Both the position numbers and the translations under genes were made by a program. Under the pieces are notes generated by a model that was not told where the DNA came from, searched no databases, and saw only the letters and a program-made list of their open reading frames with translations. Below, piece after piece: positions 16,701-58,902 of a stretch of 64,000 bases of DNA (positions are counted from its first letter, which is position 1; every line of letters starts with the position of its first letter). Source of the stretch: Antedon mediterranea (lineage: Eukaryota > Echinodermata > Crinoidea > Comatulida > Antedonidae); the NCBI RefSeq assembly GCF_964355755.1, contig NC_092672.1, positions 5,394,001 to 5,458,000 on the forward strand, read 5' to 3'.

Positions 16701-19700
16701 TTTATGTTCCACAAAAAAATGAACCATTAAATAATAATATATAAATTGTGTCCAGTATTTTTCTGCCTTTTTGTTTGTATGCTTTGATATGAATGAATAA
16801 ATATACCTGAATATATAAATACAACATTTCGTTTAAAATTTCTGTACATGATTTTATTTCATAGTGATGCTCAAGAGGTTTTAAAATCGAGTAATGTTGA
16901 GGTTCCATTATACATTATTTAGTTATTTTTACAAAATGTATATCATAACAGTAACAGTTTTGTTTTCATTTTTCTAGTGGACAAAGGTCCCAGCCATTCC
17001 AAGGCGGCAAAACAGTAACAGTGACACAGACTACAAGCTATGGTCAACATGCTCCTAGCTACACTCAGAACCCACCTGCCCCTCTACAGCAACCACCGAT
17101 TAAAAGCCCACCAAACATCAGCTCACCACCCCCTCGCTCTGCATCTTCAGCTACTAAGGAGCTGGATGACCTGATGGAGTCATTATCAGACTTTAAGGTA
17201 AGTAAACAAATAAGAAATGCTTACAAACAGCGCATTTGAGGCTTGGAGAGTGGAAGGTGGTGGAAACGGTAATTAGATACTAGGTCAGGATTGAATTCTA
17301 GACTCTGGATTGAACCCTTGACCTTAGATTGAACCCTCAGCCTTGGATTAAACCCTCAGCCTTGGATTGAACCAGGGACCTTAGATTGAAGCCTGTACCT
17401 TAAGCTCTGTCTACAATATCAAATATCAAAAAGTGTGATGTGCCCATAGTGATATGACATCATGTCCATATAGGGGCACATCACTTTTTGTTATCACATA
17501 AAGTAATAACTGTATGATAGTGTTGACAGAGCTTTAGACGCTATAACCACCAAGCTACAACTTCACTACTTAGCAGAGTTTTGTTTAAAGTAAACATTTT
17601 GGAGGGTTAATTCAATTTGTCAAATTTCATGCTAGTTGAACATGCATTGTATTTAAAATATGATGACGGATTTGTCATATATAAAGACTCGTAAGTATTC
17701 AAGACAATGCATATCAATTAGAGATTGAGGTTTAAGCCTACAAATGTATTATTTTTCTCATAGATGAATCATATATCACCTGTTGAAACAGTACCCCACG
17801 ACCCCATAAGAACAGCACCAATATCACAGCCAGTACCAGCTGAACACAACTCCAGCAATCAGCTAGACTCCATGCTTCGTCATCTAGACTCAGACATGAG
17901 TCGTCAAGGGGTCAACACGGTAGCTAAAGGTCACTGTGCCGCTTGCAACAAGCCGATTGTTGGACAAGTAAGCGTTCATTTTTTACAGTTGTTTTTATTT
18001 ATTTATTCATTTATTATGGCATTCGTCTTGGGTAAGACATTACATTTGCTAATCGTTTCCATAATCTCTTTCGGTGGCCTGATGGTCCGTCTTTAACCTT
18101 TCGATTGATGTAATTTTTGATTATATTCACTTACACCTTATTAATTAAAATACAGTATTGAATTAGAAATATTTTACTTTTTACGTCTCTTTCTCTTTTT
18201 CGTATTCATACCCACAAAAACTTTTTTATAAAATATAACCAAGTTAACAACCTACTGCATTAAACAATATATGTACAGAAACGTTGCAATAAACCTTCCA
18301 ATACAGGTTGTGACAGCTCTTGGCAAGACTTTCCATCCAGAACACTTCACCTGCAGTCACTGCCATCAGGAATTAGGCTCTTGCAACTTCTTTGAACGAG
18401 AGGGAGCTGCTTTCTGTGAGCGGGATTATCATAATCTATTTTCGCCAAGATGTGGTTACTGTAACGGACCAATTCTTGATGTAAGTAACCATCTCAAGTC
18501 TAAGGCAACTAATCAGGTTTGATTTCATGCAGGCGGCGGTAAACACAATTATTGGAAGGGCATTTTCTTACGTTGCGTAGGTTGCGCTGGTGGGAACCAT
18601 GCTTAGCTGTAGTGATTATGTTTATATTCTTGCAATTTTAAAATTTCTCAACATATATTATTAATTTGTAGAAATGTGTTACAGCGTTAGACAAAACATG
18701 GCACCCAGAACATTTCTTTTGCGCTCAATGTGGCCGTGCATTTGGAGAAGACGGCTTTCACGAGAAGAACGGCAAAGCGTATTGTAGAGAAGATTACTTT
18801 GACATGTTTGCACCTAAATGCGGCGGTTGTCACCGCGCAATCATGGAAAATTACATGACTGCATTGAACACTCAGTGGCATCCAGAATGTTTTGTGTGTG
18901 GGGTAAGATTACTTTTATATATTTAAAATGCCAGATTGGCATTTTTAAAATCAAGTGATTATATTTGGCATGGTAGTATGAAACAATTGCAGTAACCAAG
19001 TTGGGACACTTGGCTATCTGGCTAAACCTAGGGGCCCCAGAGCTCAAAGGGCCCCAGATCATGAGCAGTCCAATGCAACTACCCAGTGTTGGAGGGCCCT
19101 TAGGAGTGCCAAAACCAAGGGCCTTTGCACTGTGTGTTACGCCTCTGGCCATCAGGCAGAAAGACTTCAATTCCCAATTAAAACAATTCATGTCAGGCCT
19201 CTTGGCTGTAAATGAGTACCTGGTTGGAAAATACTGGTTAGGAGAAGGGAGAATGAACTGACCACCTTACCACATATTTCTGAAGCTCACTACAATGAGC
19301 TCTAACAGTTCATTAACATATGTTCAGAATTAATGTATACAGTAGTGTAATGTAAAAACAAATCTTGTCAATAGGGAGGTTTCGCAACCTTACAAATACG
19401 ATAACGAAAACGGATACGTCACACTTTTGTGAAACTTTTGAGCTGATCCCCATTTCATATTCGAAAAGCGTATTCGTGTTGACTAATATCACCAGTCATA
19501 TTCGTAAATACAAAACGACTATAGTTTTTGATCTATTTTGCACATTTTGCATTTGAATCAGGAAAGATTCATGATTATAATATAATTATAGATTTATTAC
19601 TAAAGTAATTTACTAAAATGCCAGGTGATGTAAAGGCCAACTCAGACAGCGTCGTACGACGAGGCCCAACGAGACGTCTTGTCTGGACCCGTCTTTCCAA

Positions 19701-22700
19701 AGTCCTACCGACAGATAATCGTGCCAACGCTCCGCGACGGCTCAACTCAGACAGCCCGACGCGACTATATTGCCTGCGCTTCTGATTGGTTGAATTCAAG
19801 ATGACGCAACAAACCATGCAACGCGTACGCACGACGTACGTACGAATACGTTCGTATGATTTGTAAACACGGAAGTAATAGTAAGTTTAATTGATAATTA
19901 ATAAACCGATAAATCCGTTTGTTTTACCTAATAAAAATAACAACAAAATTTAAGCTTATATTTTGTTGAATAATTGAGACTAGGCATATGGGATCCATAT
20001 CAGTACAGAGTTGGTAGGCCCATGTATGCCCCTAGCCAGGCCTTTTAGTAGGCATATTAGTTTAGGCCTAGGCCTAGTATCTAAATATGTGGTCACTTAG
20101 GCTAGGGCCCAAGGCCTAGGTAGTTAGTAGAAACTTAGGCTAGACCCAGATACTTTATCTAGGCATAGTAGTACATACAGAATAGGAAGTCTAATATGAT
20201 ACAGGGTAGAGTCACATGTCGATCGGTTCAATTGCTTTCATTTTTAATTACTAGGCCAATACATAACCTTGGAATATTTATGTAGGCCTAAATTAGGCTA
20301 AGCTAGGCATTTATTTATTTAGAGTACCTATACAATTCAAGTTAAATTTATAATATTGAACACAATTCAATACAAAATTGTGTTCATATATATCATTTAA
20401 AATGTCCGATTGATAAGCATTGTTGAGAGGTATAGATAGATATAACAAACCAGATAGATATAACTTTTTTTAAATTCTTTTTTTTATTATTAATATTAAC
20501 AAATTATGTACAAAAAGTAAGTGGTTCCATTTCGTCTCCATACCTTAACACTGTGGCAATGCGCCATACCAACTTTTTGGACATGTTAGCCTAAAACTCA
20601 ACTCATTAACTAGTGATACAAAATAACAAACAAATAACTAAATTATTTAAATTAAACATAATTATATTACACTTTTATTTATTTACTACATGTATTTGTT
20701 ATTACATATTAAATCACAACATACATCAGATTATATTGATGAAACAAAATGTAACCATTTAATTAAAGATGTATTGCCCCTTTGTCAAATTCCATTTACT
20801 GAATAATGAAATTTCTTAAAAATGTTGTTTTAATTATACAGTATTTACATCATGGTGTCAAATAAACGCAAATCATGTGCTGCTTTACTGCTGTTGCTTT
20901 TAAAAAGAAGGCGGCGAAGACGAAGCAGCAGAATATGGTGTAAGCCCTGGATCCTCAAAAGACAGCAACAAGGAGCATATGGAAATTTGATTCAAGAACT
21001 GCGGCTCCAGGACCAGGAATCTTACAGAAATTTTTTAAGGATGGATACTGGCACATTTGACAACCTCCTGAGTTTGGTCAAGCCCATTATAAAGAAGCAA
21101 AACACCAACTGGCGCCAGAGTATTTCTCCAGGAGAAAGATTAGCGATTACGCTTCGTTTTATTGCAACTGGTGAGTAAACATGTTCAAATCATCAAAAAC
21201 CCAAATTTATTCTATCCCTTATCCTTTCTCAGGTTTTTCAAGTATACTAACAATCTGATCACCTGTAGTTGCAAATAACCATTCATTTGTCAAACAAATT
21301 GTTAATTTCAGGTGAAACATACAAAAGTCTGTCATTTCAATACAGAGTTGGGGCCACAACAATTGGTGAAATTGTACCAGACACATGTAATGCAATATAC
21401 TCTGTTTTGAAAGAACAATACATGAAGGTAAATTACTGTGTACTCTAGGCTATAAATTTAATTTGTTATCCACTAGGAAACTGTAGTGAATGGAAAAATC
21501 AGTGAGGATTTGACTGGCTAGACAGTACATTTTGATATTATATATATTATTTGAAGCTAATCTAGATCTTTTATCTTTACTTCAAAAATATCATTTTGGA
21601 TTTTGTTCATCAGAACTGCTTTGGTTTTTTTATTTTGTATTTGTTTAAGTTCTGATGTAACATACTGACCAAAAAGTAAATCGGCATCTGTTTCTTCGCT
21701 TACGTTTGAAGGAGATTCTAATATTGTTGTAAGATTACGAATCAAATTCAATTCTTCATTGTCTCTCTCTCTTTTTGTTGGTTTTGTTGAACTTTTTTTT
21801 GTCTTAACATCATTTTCTTCGCTCATGTTGGATACATCATCATCGTGATCTGCCTCTAATCCTAAATCTGACAACTGTAACAAAAAAAAGCAATGATCAG
21901 TCAGTTATGATGTATTATTATTATTTTTTATTAGAAAGTTTATCATATTTTTATATTCATATTAACAGACGCCATCAACATCTGAAGAATGGATGGGAAT
22001 AGCAAAAGAGTTCCAAATGAAATGGAATTTCCCCAATTGTTTGGGTGCACTAGATGGAAAACATGTCAGTATTCGGCCACCACCCAATTCAGGCTCGGAA
22101 TATTTCAATTACAAAAATTCATTCAGCCTGGTACTGATGGCCCTTGTAGATTCATCATATAAATTTTTATATGTCGACTTCGGTACGAATGGACGTGTAT
22201 CCGACGGTGGGGTGTTCTCAAAATGCTCGTTGGATAAGGGCCTTAAGAACAAAGCAATTGGAGTACCAACCCCGAGTCCATTGCCTGGAACAAATACGAC
22301 AGTTCCATATATGATAGTAGCAGACGATGCATTCCCATTGCGGGAGGACATTATGAAGCCACATCCTCTAAGGCATTTAACGAAACAACAAAGAGTATTC
22401 AATTATCGTCTGTCAAGAGCTAGGAGGGTTTCTGAGAATGCTTTTGGGATCTTTGCAAATAGATTTGGTGTATTCTTGACGACGATCAAAATACTGCCGG
22501 AACACCTTCAACCGTTAGTGTTGGCATGTGCTGCTTTGCACAACATGCTAAGAAGCAATAGTGCCTACAATCCACCAGGTTTTGTTGACCTGGAAAATGG
22601 GGCGCACAATGTTGTTGAAGGACAGTGGCGACAGCAACCATCCATGGTGCCTGTTCAACTTGATAGGCACAACAATTTTACATCTGCTGCCAAGCAACAG

Positions 22701-25700
22701 AGAGAAATATTAACCACATACTTTTCATCAAAAGAAGGATCCATTGAATGGCAAGACCAAATGATTTAGATACACAGTATACTGTATACGTGCTACATAA
22801 ATTCCAACTATTATGCTTCCTTTTATTTTCACAATTTGTTTTACAGTATTCTCATTGAGGACTCTACTTTATACAACCATATTTAGGCTATAGTATTACT
22901 TACATCTAATGTGGACTGAGACGCCCTCTGCTTAATGTATGGAGTAAGCCAGTCACATCGCTCCAGCACCCATTGCTGCCTAGCTGTTCTTTTCCTGGCA
23001 GCACTCCCACTAGGCAGGCTCTTTCTGTAACGCATAAATTGTGTCCTCAGGGAATTTATATGTTTTTTGATCTCAATGTCTATTAAAATACAAATATATA
23101 TATATAATTAAATCATAATATATTAATAATCTATATAATCACAATCCATTTTTACCATTTATTTTACATTTAGGCCTACTTGGAATATATACTGTGTATA
23201 TGATATATGATATTGATACAAATATTAATAATTAAATTACATTATATTTTATACAATTTATTTTACTTTTACTTGGAATGTATACTGTGTATATAATATA
23301 AATACAATTATTAATAATAAAATTATATCATATTTTACTGTTTATTTAATGTTTACATTTACTTGGAATATATACTGTGTATATGATATATGATATTGAT
23401 ACAAATATTAATAATTAAATTACATTATATTTTATACAATTTATTTTACCTTTAATTGGAATGTATACTGTGTATATAATATAAATACAATTATTAATAA
23501 TAAAATTATATCATATTTTACTGTTTATTTAATGTTTACATTTACTTGGAATATATACTGTGTATATGATATATGATATTGATACAAATATTAATAATTA
23601 AATTACATTATATTTTATACAATTTATTTTACCTTTAATTGGAATGTATACTGTGTATATAATATAAATACAATTATTAATAATAAAATTATATCATATT
23701 TTACTGTTTATTTAATGTTTACATTTACTTGGAATATATACTGTGTATATGATATATGATATTGATACAAATATTAATAATTAAATTACATTATATTTTA
23801 TACAATTTATTTTACCTTTAATTGGAATGTATACTGTGTATATAATATAAATACAATTATTAATAATAAAATTATATCATATTTTACTGTTTATTTAATG
23901 TTTACATTTACTTGGAATATATACTGTGTATATGATATATGATATTGATACAAATAATAAATATTAATAATTAAATTACCTATATAGGGCATATAATAAT
24001 AGGCGCAGTTTTGCTTATTTATTTTTCTTGCCAATGAAAGTGAATGAATTCATGTGAATGTTGCTGATAATTTATAATATGCCTAGGGGCCTCTCTCTAG
24101 GCTAGAACTAGTAAGTAAAGACAAAGTAGTAGAGATTAGTTTATTTGTGGAAATTTTAGGGCCTACTAACTAGGCCTAGGCTAATACTAGCCCATAATAT
24201 TAGGCCTACTATCTATATATTAATGCTACTACTAATAGGTAGGCTAGTTAGGCCTATAATAATAATATTTTACTATTACTACTAGTAGTACTAACTAGTA
24301 CTAGGCCCAGGGAATAATTTCGCCAGTGTAGCATAGCAAAAAGCTATACAAAACAACCTAATATTGCTACACATTTCTAAAATTGTGTAGCAAAATATAC
24401 AATACAAAACTATGTTTCTCGACTAAAAAATAAGTTGGATTAGCAATAATTGCTAAACAAAATTTTAAAATGAAATTTCCTAGTTTAGTCTAGGGGCCTA
24501 CACTACGTACTGTACAGTATAGTAATAAAAGAGCCTAGTTTAGTAGGTAGGCCTAGTCCCAAGCTTAATATTTAATATTAGCCAAACCTAGGCTAGAGAC
24601 TAGCATGCCATAGGGACCTACCTAGGCCTAGCCCTAGGCTTATTAGGCCTAGTTAGTTAATTAATAATATTCTATTAGGCCTAGGCTAGGACTTGTTGTA
24701 GGAAAGTGTTTAGGCTAGTGAGTCGAGTGTGGGTCATTCATTTTTGGCAATAATTAATAATAGGCCTAGGCCTACGTACACTAGCCTAGCTAGGCTATAT
24801 TAATATTAGTAAAATAGCTGTTGTGTTGTGCCTAGCCTATATGCCTAGCCTATCCCTATATGGGACAAACCGCTAATTGGTACAATCCATCTACCCCTAG
24901 TAGGCTAGCCTAGGCTAGGCCTAGTAGTAAATATTTATTATTTTAGGCCTAACCTAGGAGGGGCCTTATTATAGGCCTAGCCTAGTAGGCTAGGCCTACT
25001 ACTTACTAGGCCAGGCTAGTAATTAATAATAATAATATTATTTGTTGGACTTACCACTTTTTCCTAATATTACGGCGAATTCTTCTACTTTTTTTTGCCT
25101 AAGCTGTCGATTGCTATACTCTTTGGAGGTAGTGTCATATAGACACATTTCATTCCTCCAAAGGTCAATAAGGCAAGACTCGGCCTCTTCTGACCATAAA
25201 TCTTCTTCACGTGCACCACCACCACTGACCGCCATGATGATGGAAATAATCCCCGCGAAGCACATTACTTCTTCGCGCTCTTCGATAAAAACTTTTCCCC
25301 TCGTGACCTGCCGTCATAATTTAAACGCCTGTGATTGGTCAATACCCAACAAACGAGTCGTCCCGTCGGGTGAAAATTAAACATGTTTAATATGCTCACG
25401 ACGACCTAAAACTACCCCCGACGCTATCTCACGACGACCCGTCTCGTCTGGATTCAACTCAGACAGCACGGACGAGTCAAGTTCAGACAAGACGTCTCGT
25501 CGGGCCTCGTCGCACGACGCTGTCTGAGTTGGCCTTAACGCTAGGCCTAGACAGCCAAGCGCCAAGCAACACGTACCTGCGCGTCGCTAAAATTTACCGC
25601 AGTCATTTTTTGGACGGCGCCCTCAATATTTAGTTGCCATGCGAAACAGATTTTTACTGGCTTACGAAAACGAATACGTGTGCTTGACGTTTTCGTTATC

Positions 25701-26079
25701 GTATTCGTAAGATTGCGAAACCTCCCTAATACTGATACTGAAAATTGTTTTCTTCTAACAGTCCTGCTAATACTAATAACATCATACATCAATTTTATTT
25801 TTCTTCAAACAGGAATGTCGTATGCCTTTCAATGGTGGTAGTTTCTTCGATCACGATGGTATTCCATACTGCGAGACACATTACCACGCCGTACGCGGAT
25901 CCCTCTGCGCTGGCTGCAGAATGCCAGTCACTGGAAGATGCATCACAGCCATGGGCAAGAAGTTTCACCCAGAGCACTTTTCTTGCGCATACTGCCTGAA
26001 ACAACTCAACAAAGGCACCTTCAAGGAACAGAATGATAAGCCTTATTGCCATACATGTTTTACAAAGTTGTTTAGCTAG
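1772..26079 (+). CDS. PXN: Paxillin, complete coding gene (9 exons, 543 aa)
   Basis: Focal-adhesion scaffold that links integrin complexes to FAK/Src kinases, vinculin and actin regulators. Coding exons: 1772-1784, 13287-13438, 13872-14130, 14733-14844, 16978-17197, 17764-17967, 18307-18480, 18672-18902 and 25813-26079, all with GT-AG borders and continuous phase. LD motifs seen: LD1 at residues 3-12 ([10 protein letters not shown], split by intron 1), LD2 at about 124-138 ([15 protein letters not shown]), an LD4-like motif at 240-251 ([12 protein letters not shown]) and an LD5-like motif at about 284-297 ([14 protein letters not shown]). I found no LD3. Tyr40 and Tyr78 both sit in SPLYSEI, resembling the FAK/Src phosphosites. 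Four LIM zinc domains run from Cys310 to the end ([32 protein letters not shown] starts). The length is close to the 557-591 aa of the human forms. Introns 1 (11.5 kb) and 8 (6.9 kb) are packed with repeats. Confidence 0.95.
2210..2280 (-). tRNA. tRNA-like gene with anticodon AUC (Asp codon GAU)
   Basis: Read on the minus strand, 71 bases fold as a tRNA. The acceptor GCCTCAG pairs with TTGGGGC (two G-U pairs) and the anticodon stem TCTGC pairs with GCAGG around the loop ATATCAA. The T arm is perfect (CCGAG / CTCGG, loop TTCGAGT). The D arm is weak, with one mismatch. A run of five T lies at 2206-2202, just past the 3-prime end, as expected for an RNA polymerase III terminator. The anticodon ATC would read Asp GAU, whereas eukaryotic tRNA-Asp normally carries GUC. 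It may be a mutated copy, a SINE head or a pseudogene. Confidence 0.55.
4945..4981. repeat. Short perfect hairpin
   Basis: ATGGAGGTATA (4945-4955) is mirrored by TATACCTCCAT (4971-4981): an 11-bp stem around a 15-base AT loop. It could be a remnant of a very short inverted-repeat element. Confidence 0.5.
6630..6785 (+). repeat. Two-copy direct duplication, about 91 bp apart
   Basis: TTGTGGTTCACCACCACCTT followed by a shared CAATGTTTCATTACATAATT tract occurs at about 6632 and again at about 6723. The small ORF across it is a by-product of the duplication. Confidence 0.6.
9851..9975 (+). repeat. 13-bp minisatellite, about 8 copies
   Basis: The unit GGGGAATGTTCCA is repeated about eight times with almost no change. 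The array is bounded by an inverted pair, GTTATATCC at 9851-9859 and GGATATAAC at 9967-9975. Each unit contains GAATGTTC, which fits the GAAnnTTC core of a heat-shock element; regulatory use is only inference. Because 39 bases equal 13 codons, the minus strand reads as a repetitive peptide that I do not regard as a gene. Confidence 0.85.
10540..10800 (+). repeat. Irregular tandem repeat (GCATGGACCTAATTTA family)
   Basis: The block ATGAGACATAATA ... AAGCATGGACCTAATTTA occurs three times (near 10545, 10612 and 10696). The outer copies also share TAGGTTCATGGTATAAGACA. The array is AT-rich and has no coding content. Confidence 0.7.
10854..11130 (+). repeat. Two-copy tandem duplication, about 130 bp
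   Basis: ACTCCCACATACCCAGCAGG through GTTGCAGCACATACTTGTAC is present twice, 130 bases apart. Differences are few, apart from about 16 extra bases near the start of the first copy, which indicates a recent duplication. Confidence 0.85.
11391..12967. repeat. CpG-rich unclassified repeat element
   Basis: This 1.6-kb block stands out from its AT-rich surroundings by frequent CG, including runs such as GCGCGCGTAAATT. It is bounded by the inverted pair TTGGTTATCCGC (11391-11402) and GCGGATAACCAA (12956-12967). Inside, a diverged direct repeat (TGGCCATATGATGACGTCAC near 11807, TGGCCATACGATGAAGTCAC near 12162) is about 355 bases apart. The short ORFs here look like chance. It is probably a non-coding mobile element or decayed satellite; I cannot name the family. 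Confidence 0.5.
13529..13682 (+). repeat. G/C-rich dispersed repeat fragment
   Basis: The block holds GGGGGGCCCAGGGCC near its left end and CTGGGCCCCCCTTGAATC near its right end, which look like worn inverted termini of a short DNA element. It sits in PXN intron 2. Confidence 0.4.
14510..14695 (+). repeat. Tandem repeat around AATACATTTGxxGGGCCC
   Basis: Four diverged units, each with ACATTTG, a GGGCCC core and a following TTATNTGTTTCTTA stretch, end just before PXN exon 4 and may crowd its branch-point region. Confidence 0.65.
15499..15618. mobile_element. Foldback MITE, copy 2
   Basis: Short (120 bp) member of the family at 62562-62726, in PXN intron 4, with flanking TA on both sides and AAGCTCTGTCTACACTATCA on the left. 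The ORF that crosses it is not a gene. Confidence 0.85.
16361..16445 (+). CDS. Candidate alternative paxillin exon
   Basis: An open 85-base segment between PXN exons 4 and 5 follows a pyrimidine-rich tract ending ACCAG and precedes a strong donor (CAT before GTAAGTTGG). It would encode about 28 residues beginning [15 protein letters not shown] and ending HFDGVYMT. It starts in phase 1 and ends in phase 2, exactly like exon 4 (14733-14844). Splicing from exon 3 into it and on to exon 5 therefore stays in frame, while joining it after exon 4 hits a stop, so the two would be mutually exclusive. I do not recognise the peptide. It may be a chance ORF or an exon of something else. Confidence 0.4.
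17290..17400 (+). repeat. About 20-bp minisatellite, six units
   Basis: Units of the form GGATTGAACCCTCAGCCTT are repeated about six times in PXN intron 5. The array directly abuts MITE copy 3. The repeating GATTGAACCC resembles the B-box side of a worn tRNA-derived SINE, a possible source. Confidence 0.65.
17403..17534. mobile_element. Foldback MITE, copy 3
   Basis: Member of the family at 62562-62726, with arms more diverged than in most copies. TA is present on both sides. Confidence 0.75.
18530..18608 (-). repeat. Dispersed repeat shared with 32655-32790
   Basis: The stretch from GGTAAACACAATTATTGGAA to GGTGGGAACCA is the inverted counterpart of 32665-32730. The two copies share AACACAATTATT and AAGGGCATTT, and have related ends around GGTTCCCACTAG. 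It lies in PXN intron 7. Confidence 0.65.
20852..22769 (+). CDS. Harbinger transposase (HARBI1-like DDE nuclease), 3 exons, 411 aa
   Basis: Exons 20852-21170, 21312-21427 and 21969-22769 join in frame across consensus GT-AG introns. The protein opens with a Leu/Arg-rich basic stretch, then a helical domain ([41 protein letters not shown]) and the DDE_4 nuclease. Proposed catalytic residues by comparison with HARBI1 are D174 (GALDGKH), D264 (VADDAF) and E301 (RVSENAFG). The C-terminal [11 protein letters not shown] is also a family hallmark. No frameshift or stop is seen, so it could be active. An acceptor-like TTATACAG sits just before the ATG, so a non-coding leader exon is likely. Confidence 0.93.
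21557..25235 (-). CDS. Harbinger-associated MADF/Myb-like DNA-binding protein, 3 exons, 224 aa
   Basis: Minus-strand exons 25235-25055, 23079-22904 and 21874-21557 join in frame (AG/GT borders checked by eye). Exon 1 starts [18 protein letters not shown] and carries [14 protein letters not shown], the first helices of a MADF/SANT-type domain; exon 2 carries [19 protein letters not shown] and [14 protein letters not shown]. Exon 3 is an acidic then Lys-rich tail ending in FEVKIKDLD. In PIF/Harbinger elements the second protein binds DNA and helps the transposase reach nucleus and ends; that role is inferred from family knowledge. Exon 3 lies inside transposase intron 2 and exon 2 just beyond the transposase stop, so the two genes interleave on opposite strands. 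Confidence 0.88.
23166..23965 (+). repeat. 183-bp tandem array inside the Harbinger element
   Basis: TGGAATATATACTGTGTATA starts at 23181, 23363, 23547, 23730 and 23913, giving about 4.3 nearly identical units of about 183 bp. Each unit has two diverged halves (GGAATATATACTGTGTATAT and GGAATGTATACTGTGTATAT). It lies in the intron of the MADF gene, is about 85 percent A+T, and probably differs in length among element copies. Confidence 0.9.
24060..25030. repeat. TAGGCCTA-rich tract
   Basis: Dozens of TAGGCCTA, CTAG and GCCTAGGC words fill this stretch, immediately after exon 1 of the MADF gene. Similar tracts occur at 1228-1330, 20030-20330, 33478-33620, 35826-35910, 51930-52335 and 63540-63580. 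Confidence 0.7.
24308..24482 (+). mobile_element. hAT-like MITE nested in the Harbinger element
   Basis: Starts CAGGGAATAATTTCGCCAGT and aligns along its whole length with the inverted copy at 52920-53094. Shared inner words include GTGTAGCATAGCAAAAAGCT and ATAGTTTTG on the opposite strand. The right end has decayed (TTTCCTAG instead of TTCCCTG). Confidence 0.7.
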
Positions 26080-57947: not shown

Positions 57948-58455
57948 GTAAGTTTATACATTATTGAAAGCTAGATAATGTCCAACACTCTTTCCTACTG
58001 CTTAAAAGGCTCATTAACCCAAGGATGTTTTTATTTTGGTAGAAAATATCTTATTTATAGCCTAAAATCAAAGCTACATATGCCATTTTGTTGACCCATA
58101 ATTTTTTTTTATGCAAATCATAGTGTACGGTTTTGCCATTCATAGAACCCAATGAGAGATCCTGGTTAGGCTGCTACAAATAATATAAGCCTATACCAAA
58201 ACTATTACAACAACATTTTAGTAAATTACTAATATTTTCATTATACAGTAGGCCTACCGAAATGTTTTTTGCAAGCCTAAAATATTTTTTAATAACTTTG
58301 TAGAGCTGGATTTAAAGGAAATGTGCATCTGTACATCAAATCCCCCTCCCTAAAATCCCTCTTTCAGTAGGCCTAAGCTGTATTAGAAAAATATCTTTTA
58401 TTATACTTCAACCACAACTAATGTTTAATACTATGTGTATTGTATTATTCTACAG

Positions 58456-58902
58456 ATGTCAAGTCAAGATGAAATACCAGGCAAATGCAAGGACCATCCA
58501 GAAACCACATTAGAAATATTTTGCGTAACTTGCAACAAGAGTACATGTAAGGAATGTACAAATTTTGAAAGTTGCACAGCAGAACACGAAACTAAACCAA
58601 TACTAGTCGCTATAGCGGAGTTTAACAAAAAGGCAAATGAAGTTCTGATGTCCGCAGAGGAAGTAAAACAGCAATTAGAAGCTACGTATCAGGCCTTAAT
58701 GGCGGACAAGGAAGAATTTGATGCACACGTACAGTCATGTAAGGCGGCGATCGAAAGACGTACACAAGAAATTATTGAAAAAGTGAAAGAAGAAAGCCAA
58801 CAAATGTTGATGAATCTTGATAACGTATCGAGACAATCAAATGAGATTGAATCGCAGCAAATAATTGCGAAGTCTAAAGATATCAGATTCAGAAATAATT
58901 AA
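58456..58902 (+). CDS. B-box zinc finger coiled-coil protein (148 aa, TRIM-like fragment)
   Basis: Starts MSSQDEIPGKC directly after a splice acceptor. Residues about 11-50 form a B-box-type zinc site: CKDH, CVTC, CKEC and a final CTAEH, with normal spacing. A long helix rich in Glu, Gln and Lys follows to the end (FNKKANEVLMSAEEVKQQLE onward), as in the BBC coiled coil of TRIM proteins. There is no RING before the B-box and no NHL, SPRY or other domain after it, so it is much shorter than a TRIM (usually 400-700 aa). It could be a genuine B-box-only gene or the first part of a gene whose later exons I missed, but a TAA and an AATAAA at 59138-59143 favour a short gene. Confidence 0.82.
   Translation: MSSQDEIPGKCKDHPETTLEIFCVTCNKSTCKECTNFESCTAEHETKPILVAIAEFNKKANEVLMSAEEVKQQLEATYQALMADKEEFDAHVQSCKAAIERRTQEIIEKVKEESQQMLMNLDNVSRQSNEIESQQIIAKSKDIRFRNN

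Follow-up and report, generated by a model that had tools for sequence, protein, structure and literature searches.

PIF/Harbinger DNA transposons duplicate 3 bp of their target site. In the account given in PMC2836001, both proteins of these elements are needed for movement, with the second protein binding the element ends and bringing the transposase to them. The same account describes this for Harbinger3_DR, a reconstructed zebrafish element whose second protein binds the terminal inverted repeats (TIRs) and carries the transposase to the nucleus and to the ends (PMC2836001). Here we analyze an element of this superfamily within a 64,000-nucleotide stretch of DNA (hereafter, the window), which lies on contig C3 of the genome that we searched (354 Mb in 18 contigs, 11 of them chromosome-sized). 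A search of this assembly for mitochondrial COX1 gave no match.

The transposon occupies positions 19634-25535 (5,902 bp) and has TAA on either side (19631-19633 and 25536-25538), in agreement with the perfect TAA target site duplication (TSD) proposed in a first-pass annotation of the sequence. Comparison of the left TIR (19634-19685, plus strand) with the right TIR (25484-25535, minus strand) also confirmed the proposed 52-bp inverted ends with two mismatches: 50 of 52 positions are identical, and the third mismatch falls at position 53. The genome contains 201 exact matches to the 17-bp terminus (106 and 95 on its two strands), while the reversed control gave 0 and 0 occurrences on the two strands of the whole genome, so the recurrence of the terminus is not due to chance. 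In addition to these TIRs, the element has the other hallmarks of PIF/Harbinger transposons – a DDE_Tnp_4 transposase with a D..D..E triad, a 3-bp TWA TSD (TAA/TAA for the window element and a copy on contig C7, TTA/TTA for a copy on contig C4), and a second gene with a DNA-binding domain of the SANT/Myb/MADF type. Its membership in the superfamily is ordinary, and it is of the transposase-plus-MADF kind that is known from insects (PMC9710019).

Three plus-strand exons (20852-21170, 21312-21427, and 21969-22769) splice into an open frame for a 411-amino acid DDE transposase that matches Pfam DDE_Tnp_4 (E = 8.8e-27). The triad residues D174, D264, and E301 are encoded in exon 3 and are invariant across nine related transposases from the same genome; no solved structure resembling the transposase by sequence was found. 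On the opposite strand, exons at 25055-25235 (ATG at 25235, with an in-frame upstream ATG at 25265), 22904-23079, and 21557-21874 splice into an open frame for a 224-amino acid protein with a MADF domain (Pfam E = 8.1e-13). Exon 3 of this gene encodes a BESS-like C-terminus that, taken alone, falls below the Pfam reporting level. GT..AG borders were found at all four introns of the two genes in the window copy. Both proteins had been called uninterrupted in the first-pass annotation, which regarded the copy as apparently intact, and the spliced frames bear this out for its coding capacity. Elsewhere in the genome, a Myb/SANT-like gene (L101, G000:C4:1381800-1384300; Pfam Myb_DNA-bind_4) encodes a C-terminus ~46% identical to that of the window MADF protein; the genome search returned no transposase match nearby, making this gene a candidate domesticated second gene.

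The most unusual feature of the element, which is missing from the first-pass annotation, is the way in which its two genes are interlocked. MADF exon 3 (21557-21874, minus strand) lies within transposase intron 2 (21428-21968), and transposase exon 3 (21969-22769, plus strand) lies within MADF intron 2 (21875-22903). In the gene models predicted from the sequence, the genes are therefore convergent, with the 3' exon of each inside an intron of the other. Because of this placement, the predicted precursor RNAs must overlap in antisense over more than 1.2 kb; in the same models, the spliced coding sequences do not overlap each other. A MADF isoform that stopped after exon 2 would escape the interlocking. 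Our best guess is that the layout may tie the two required proteins together, conceivably because most internal deletions would hit both genes. It is also conceivable that the antisense overlap makes expression self-limiting.

We observed the same or a variant layout in several related families of the genome, whose splice sites are GT..AG wherever read. A closer relative on contig C3 (L055/L057, at 15.73 Mb) has the gene order of the window element. In family L038, whose transposase is 51% identical, the MADF exons lie at 462-615, 1238-1422, and 2396-2757; the last of these lies within transposase intron 2, the splice sites are GT..AG, and the spliced protein has a MADF domain (E 1.2e-21). Two decayed members of this family (L050 and L100) have kept the antisense exon in transposase intron 2. 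Similarly, an antisense BESS-like exon (884-1264) lies between transposase exons 2 and 3 in L099/L108 (~50% transposase identity).

Other families depart from this arrangement. In L047 (44%), the main transposase exon is within MADF intron 1, and MADF exons 2 and 3 lie antisense upstream; the protein matches MADF (1.3e-16) and BESS (8.5e-5), and the interlock is one-sided as far as traced because the first transposase exon was not located. In L040/L044, antisense MADF exons lie on both sides of the main transposase exon, the C-terminal one being a weaker assignment read from an open reading frame. Five further families (L034, L036, L039, L048, and L049) have the MADF C-terminal exon antisense and past the transposase stop – a tail-to-tail layout without overlap. 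Interlocked and tail-to-tail layouts are intermingled in the transposase tree, where the deep supports are 62-64.

On balance, we favor the view that a clade of animal PIF/Harbinger transposons keeps an interlocked antisense gene pair across ~50% transposase identity, a layout that would force precursor overlap and tie the fates of the genes together. If true, the conserved interlock would be a testable case of transposon self-regulation or gene-pair protection through layout alone, for which the tail-to-tail families of the same genome offer a natural comparison. We found no description of an interlocked Harbinger gene pair in a literature search that excluded Repbase and most subscription journals. 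PIF/Harbinger transposons being known already, we consider with moderate confidence that the interlocking is the new part.

Searching the genome with transposase exon 3 identified three further near-identical long copies, on contigs C7 (2 mismatches in 801 positions relative to the window), C4 (6 mismatches), and C6 (97%, with indels). The C7 and C4 copies have both ends, their own target duplications, and unlike flanks. Pairwise divergence among the long copies is 0.65-2.26% over a core of 2.0-2.3 kb. Private substitutions number 6 in the window copy and 7, 17, and 28 in the others, giving an almost star-like pattern. The combination of differing flanks, TAA or TTA duplications, and near-star divergence of 0.65-2.3% argues that the copies arose by transposition and did so recently. 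The first-pass annotation had likewise suggested recent movement and had named equally diverged copies with common old mutations as the pattern that would speak against it. Such copies are absent, with a single shared 2:2 site in ~2 kb, and the near-identical copies at unrelated sites, together with the derivatives and empty sites described below, support the suggestion. Gene capture or segmental duplication was rejected as the source of the copies because the flanks adjoining the ends differ and TSDs exist. Assuming that 1-3e-9 substitutions accumulate per site each year, the 6 found in 2 kb would place the split of the window lineage ~1-3 million years ago.

Both coding sequences are open in two of the four long copies, those of the window and C7. 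The C7 copy (G000:C7 11278164-11289817) has large inserts in two places: a TTAA-flanked MITE precedes its transposase, and MADF intron 1 holds several kb of additional DNA made up of nested palindromes, among them long inverted repeats 98.8% alike. The C4 copy is dead: it has the catalytic substitution D174V, and its reading frames are shifted where 5 bp are missing from transposase exon 2 and where 5 bp have been added to MADF exon 3. The C6 copy has W153*, frameshifts, and a truncation. MADF intron 1 of the window copy contains a 183-bp tandem repeat (23177-23956; 4.3 units, 99% matches). No such array is present in the C7 and C4 copies, where we found only a shorter 86-93-bp periodicity, which suggests that the array expanded recently. 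Gap repair after excision could produce such growth, and changes in tandem-repeat number in MtPH-A6-4 are ascribed to gap repair in the accounts given in PMC2836001 and PMC2213677.

Short derivatives of the element are also present. Two 418-bp MITEs on contig C1 (C1:3560268 and C1:22909996) are fusions of the two element ends, with 211 bp from the right and 209 bp from the left. Their sequences disagree at 6 positions; one is flanked by TAA/TAA and the other by TAA/TTA. These short elements, with both ends and the expected TSD type, identify the long element as a MITE parent; its window and C7 copies are two-gene Harbinger elements that are intact in coding sequence and have MITEs to match. 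A shared motif, CAACTCAGACAGC, lies within the left TIR (19638-19650, plus strand) and the right TIR (25519, minus strand) and recurs further in at 19743-19755 and 25455-25467 (both plus strand). It is also found inside the ends of the C7 and C6 copies and the 418-bp MITEs, all of which have the left inner motif, and with one mismatch in C4. The inner motifs had been described as inverted relative to their nearest end; this holds on the right (25455 plus against 25519 minus) but not on the left, where the inner and terminal motifs (19743 and 19638, both plus) are direct.

To locate empty sites, the window flanks were fused at one TAA and searched against the genome, which returned more than 30 uninterrupted matches (79-88%). 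Three of the six fetched sequences read GATG-TTA-CGCTAGG, with a single TTA at the position of the left TAA and thus one TWA against the two TAA of the window; the other three differed or were gapped at the site. Uninterrupted flank matches with a single TWA indicate that the element inserted into one copy of a different dispersed repeat, two parts of which form the window flanks (19434-19633 and 25539-25738) and which is present in more than 30 places. Separately, we observed perfect or near-perfect 44-bp palindromes of the two outer TIR halves at 22 sites (≤3 mismatches; e.g., G000:C4:367469-367512). Twenty such stretches were fetched (L079-L098), comprising 19 of the 22 sites and one 41-bp variant. 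The idea that they are mobile micro-elements was rejected: 19 of 20 lie in one other dispersed repeat (~20 copies), and none has matching 3-bp flanks. The exception, L097, has only its left flank in common with that repeat. Outside the element, an open reading frame at 58435-58902 of the window shows, by eye, a B-box-like cysteine/histidine pattern and possibly belongs to a TRIM-type host gene.

The region upstream of the transposase sets the window copy apart. At the point corresponding to 20767 of the window, ~85 bp before the transposase ATG, a ~560-bp foreign repeat interrupts the C7 and C4 copies; this repeat is very common, has inverted ends, and is flanked by TTAA. Beyond it, both copies continue with 113 bp of the element. 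The C6 copy has the 113 bp without the foreign insert. The window copy keeps TTAA and the first 27 bp of the insert (20763-20793, the right edge being the deletion junction), is missing the 113 native bp, and resumes 58 bp before the transposase ATG. This remnant implies that the insert was formerly present in the lineage of the window copy and that a later deletion removed it along with part of the native upstream sequence.

Because the missing 113 bp lie just upstream of the transposase ATG, the window copy may be poorly expressed. It is quite possible, though not what we expect, that the copy is coding-intact yet transcriptionally crippled, the deletion having taken a promoter or 5' exon, and that the family owes its present or past movement to C7 or to a copy outside the assembly. 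The retention of the 113 bp in C7, C4, and C6 and the closeness of the junction to the ATG point in this direction; however, the transcription start could sit further upstream or in the remaining 58 bp, and the window coding sequences show no decay. Errors in the interlocked gene models seem unlikely to us. They would require that the MADF gene stops after exon 2 and that the open reading frame antisense in transposase intron 2 is incidental, and three points lend this some weight: the models are predicted from sequence, read-through of the MADF exon 2 donor soon reaches a stop, and the window BESS is missed by Pfam. Yet the same transposase intron holds an antisense open reading frame in families with ~50% transposase identity, where its acceptor position and length class are unchanged and its end is again BESS-like, and a homologous last exon is present in the tail-to-tail families. 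Least probable by far is a domesticated host gene pair instead of a transposon. Insects do have co-domesticated PIF transposase/MADF pairs (PMC9710019), but such a reading is contradicted by the TIRs and TSDs of the locus, which are intact, and by the existence of several near-identical copies, of MITEs, and of empty sites.

The whole is very probably best explained by a young DNA transposon of the PIF/Harbinger superfamily, with complete coding sequence, convergent interlocked genes, and two-protein cut-and-paste movement of the superfamily type. By analogy with the superfamily, the MADF protein would bind the element ends, probably via the CAACTCAGACAGC-containing TIR and subterminal motifs, and would then recruit the DDE transposase. 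The element would move by cut-and-paste into TWA targets with a 3-bp duplication, and the same two proteins may mobilize the 418-bp internal-deletion derivatives.

Among described systems, animal PIF/Harbinger elements with a MADF protein (insect PIF, and the co-domesticated pairs DPLG7/DPM7 and APLG/APM; PMC9710019) resemble the window element in combining a DDE_Tnp_4 transposase with a MADF second protein. In the domesticated pairs of insects, the two genes lie side by side with 97 or 179 bp between them and lack TIRs and TSDs (PMC9710019), whereas those of the window element are interlocked and TIR-bounded. Harbinger3_DR, as presented in PMC2836001, is likewise a two-protein system, but its second protein is Myb-like rather than MADF. 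Ping/Pong/mPing and Medicago MtPH share with the window element TAA/TTA targets, two genes, and internal-deletion MITEs, according to the descriptions drawn on here from PMC2836001 and PMC2213677. In those descriptions, MtPH orf1 can precede or follow the transposase gene and interlocking goes unmentioned, whereas in the window element the two genes are interlocked.
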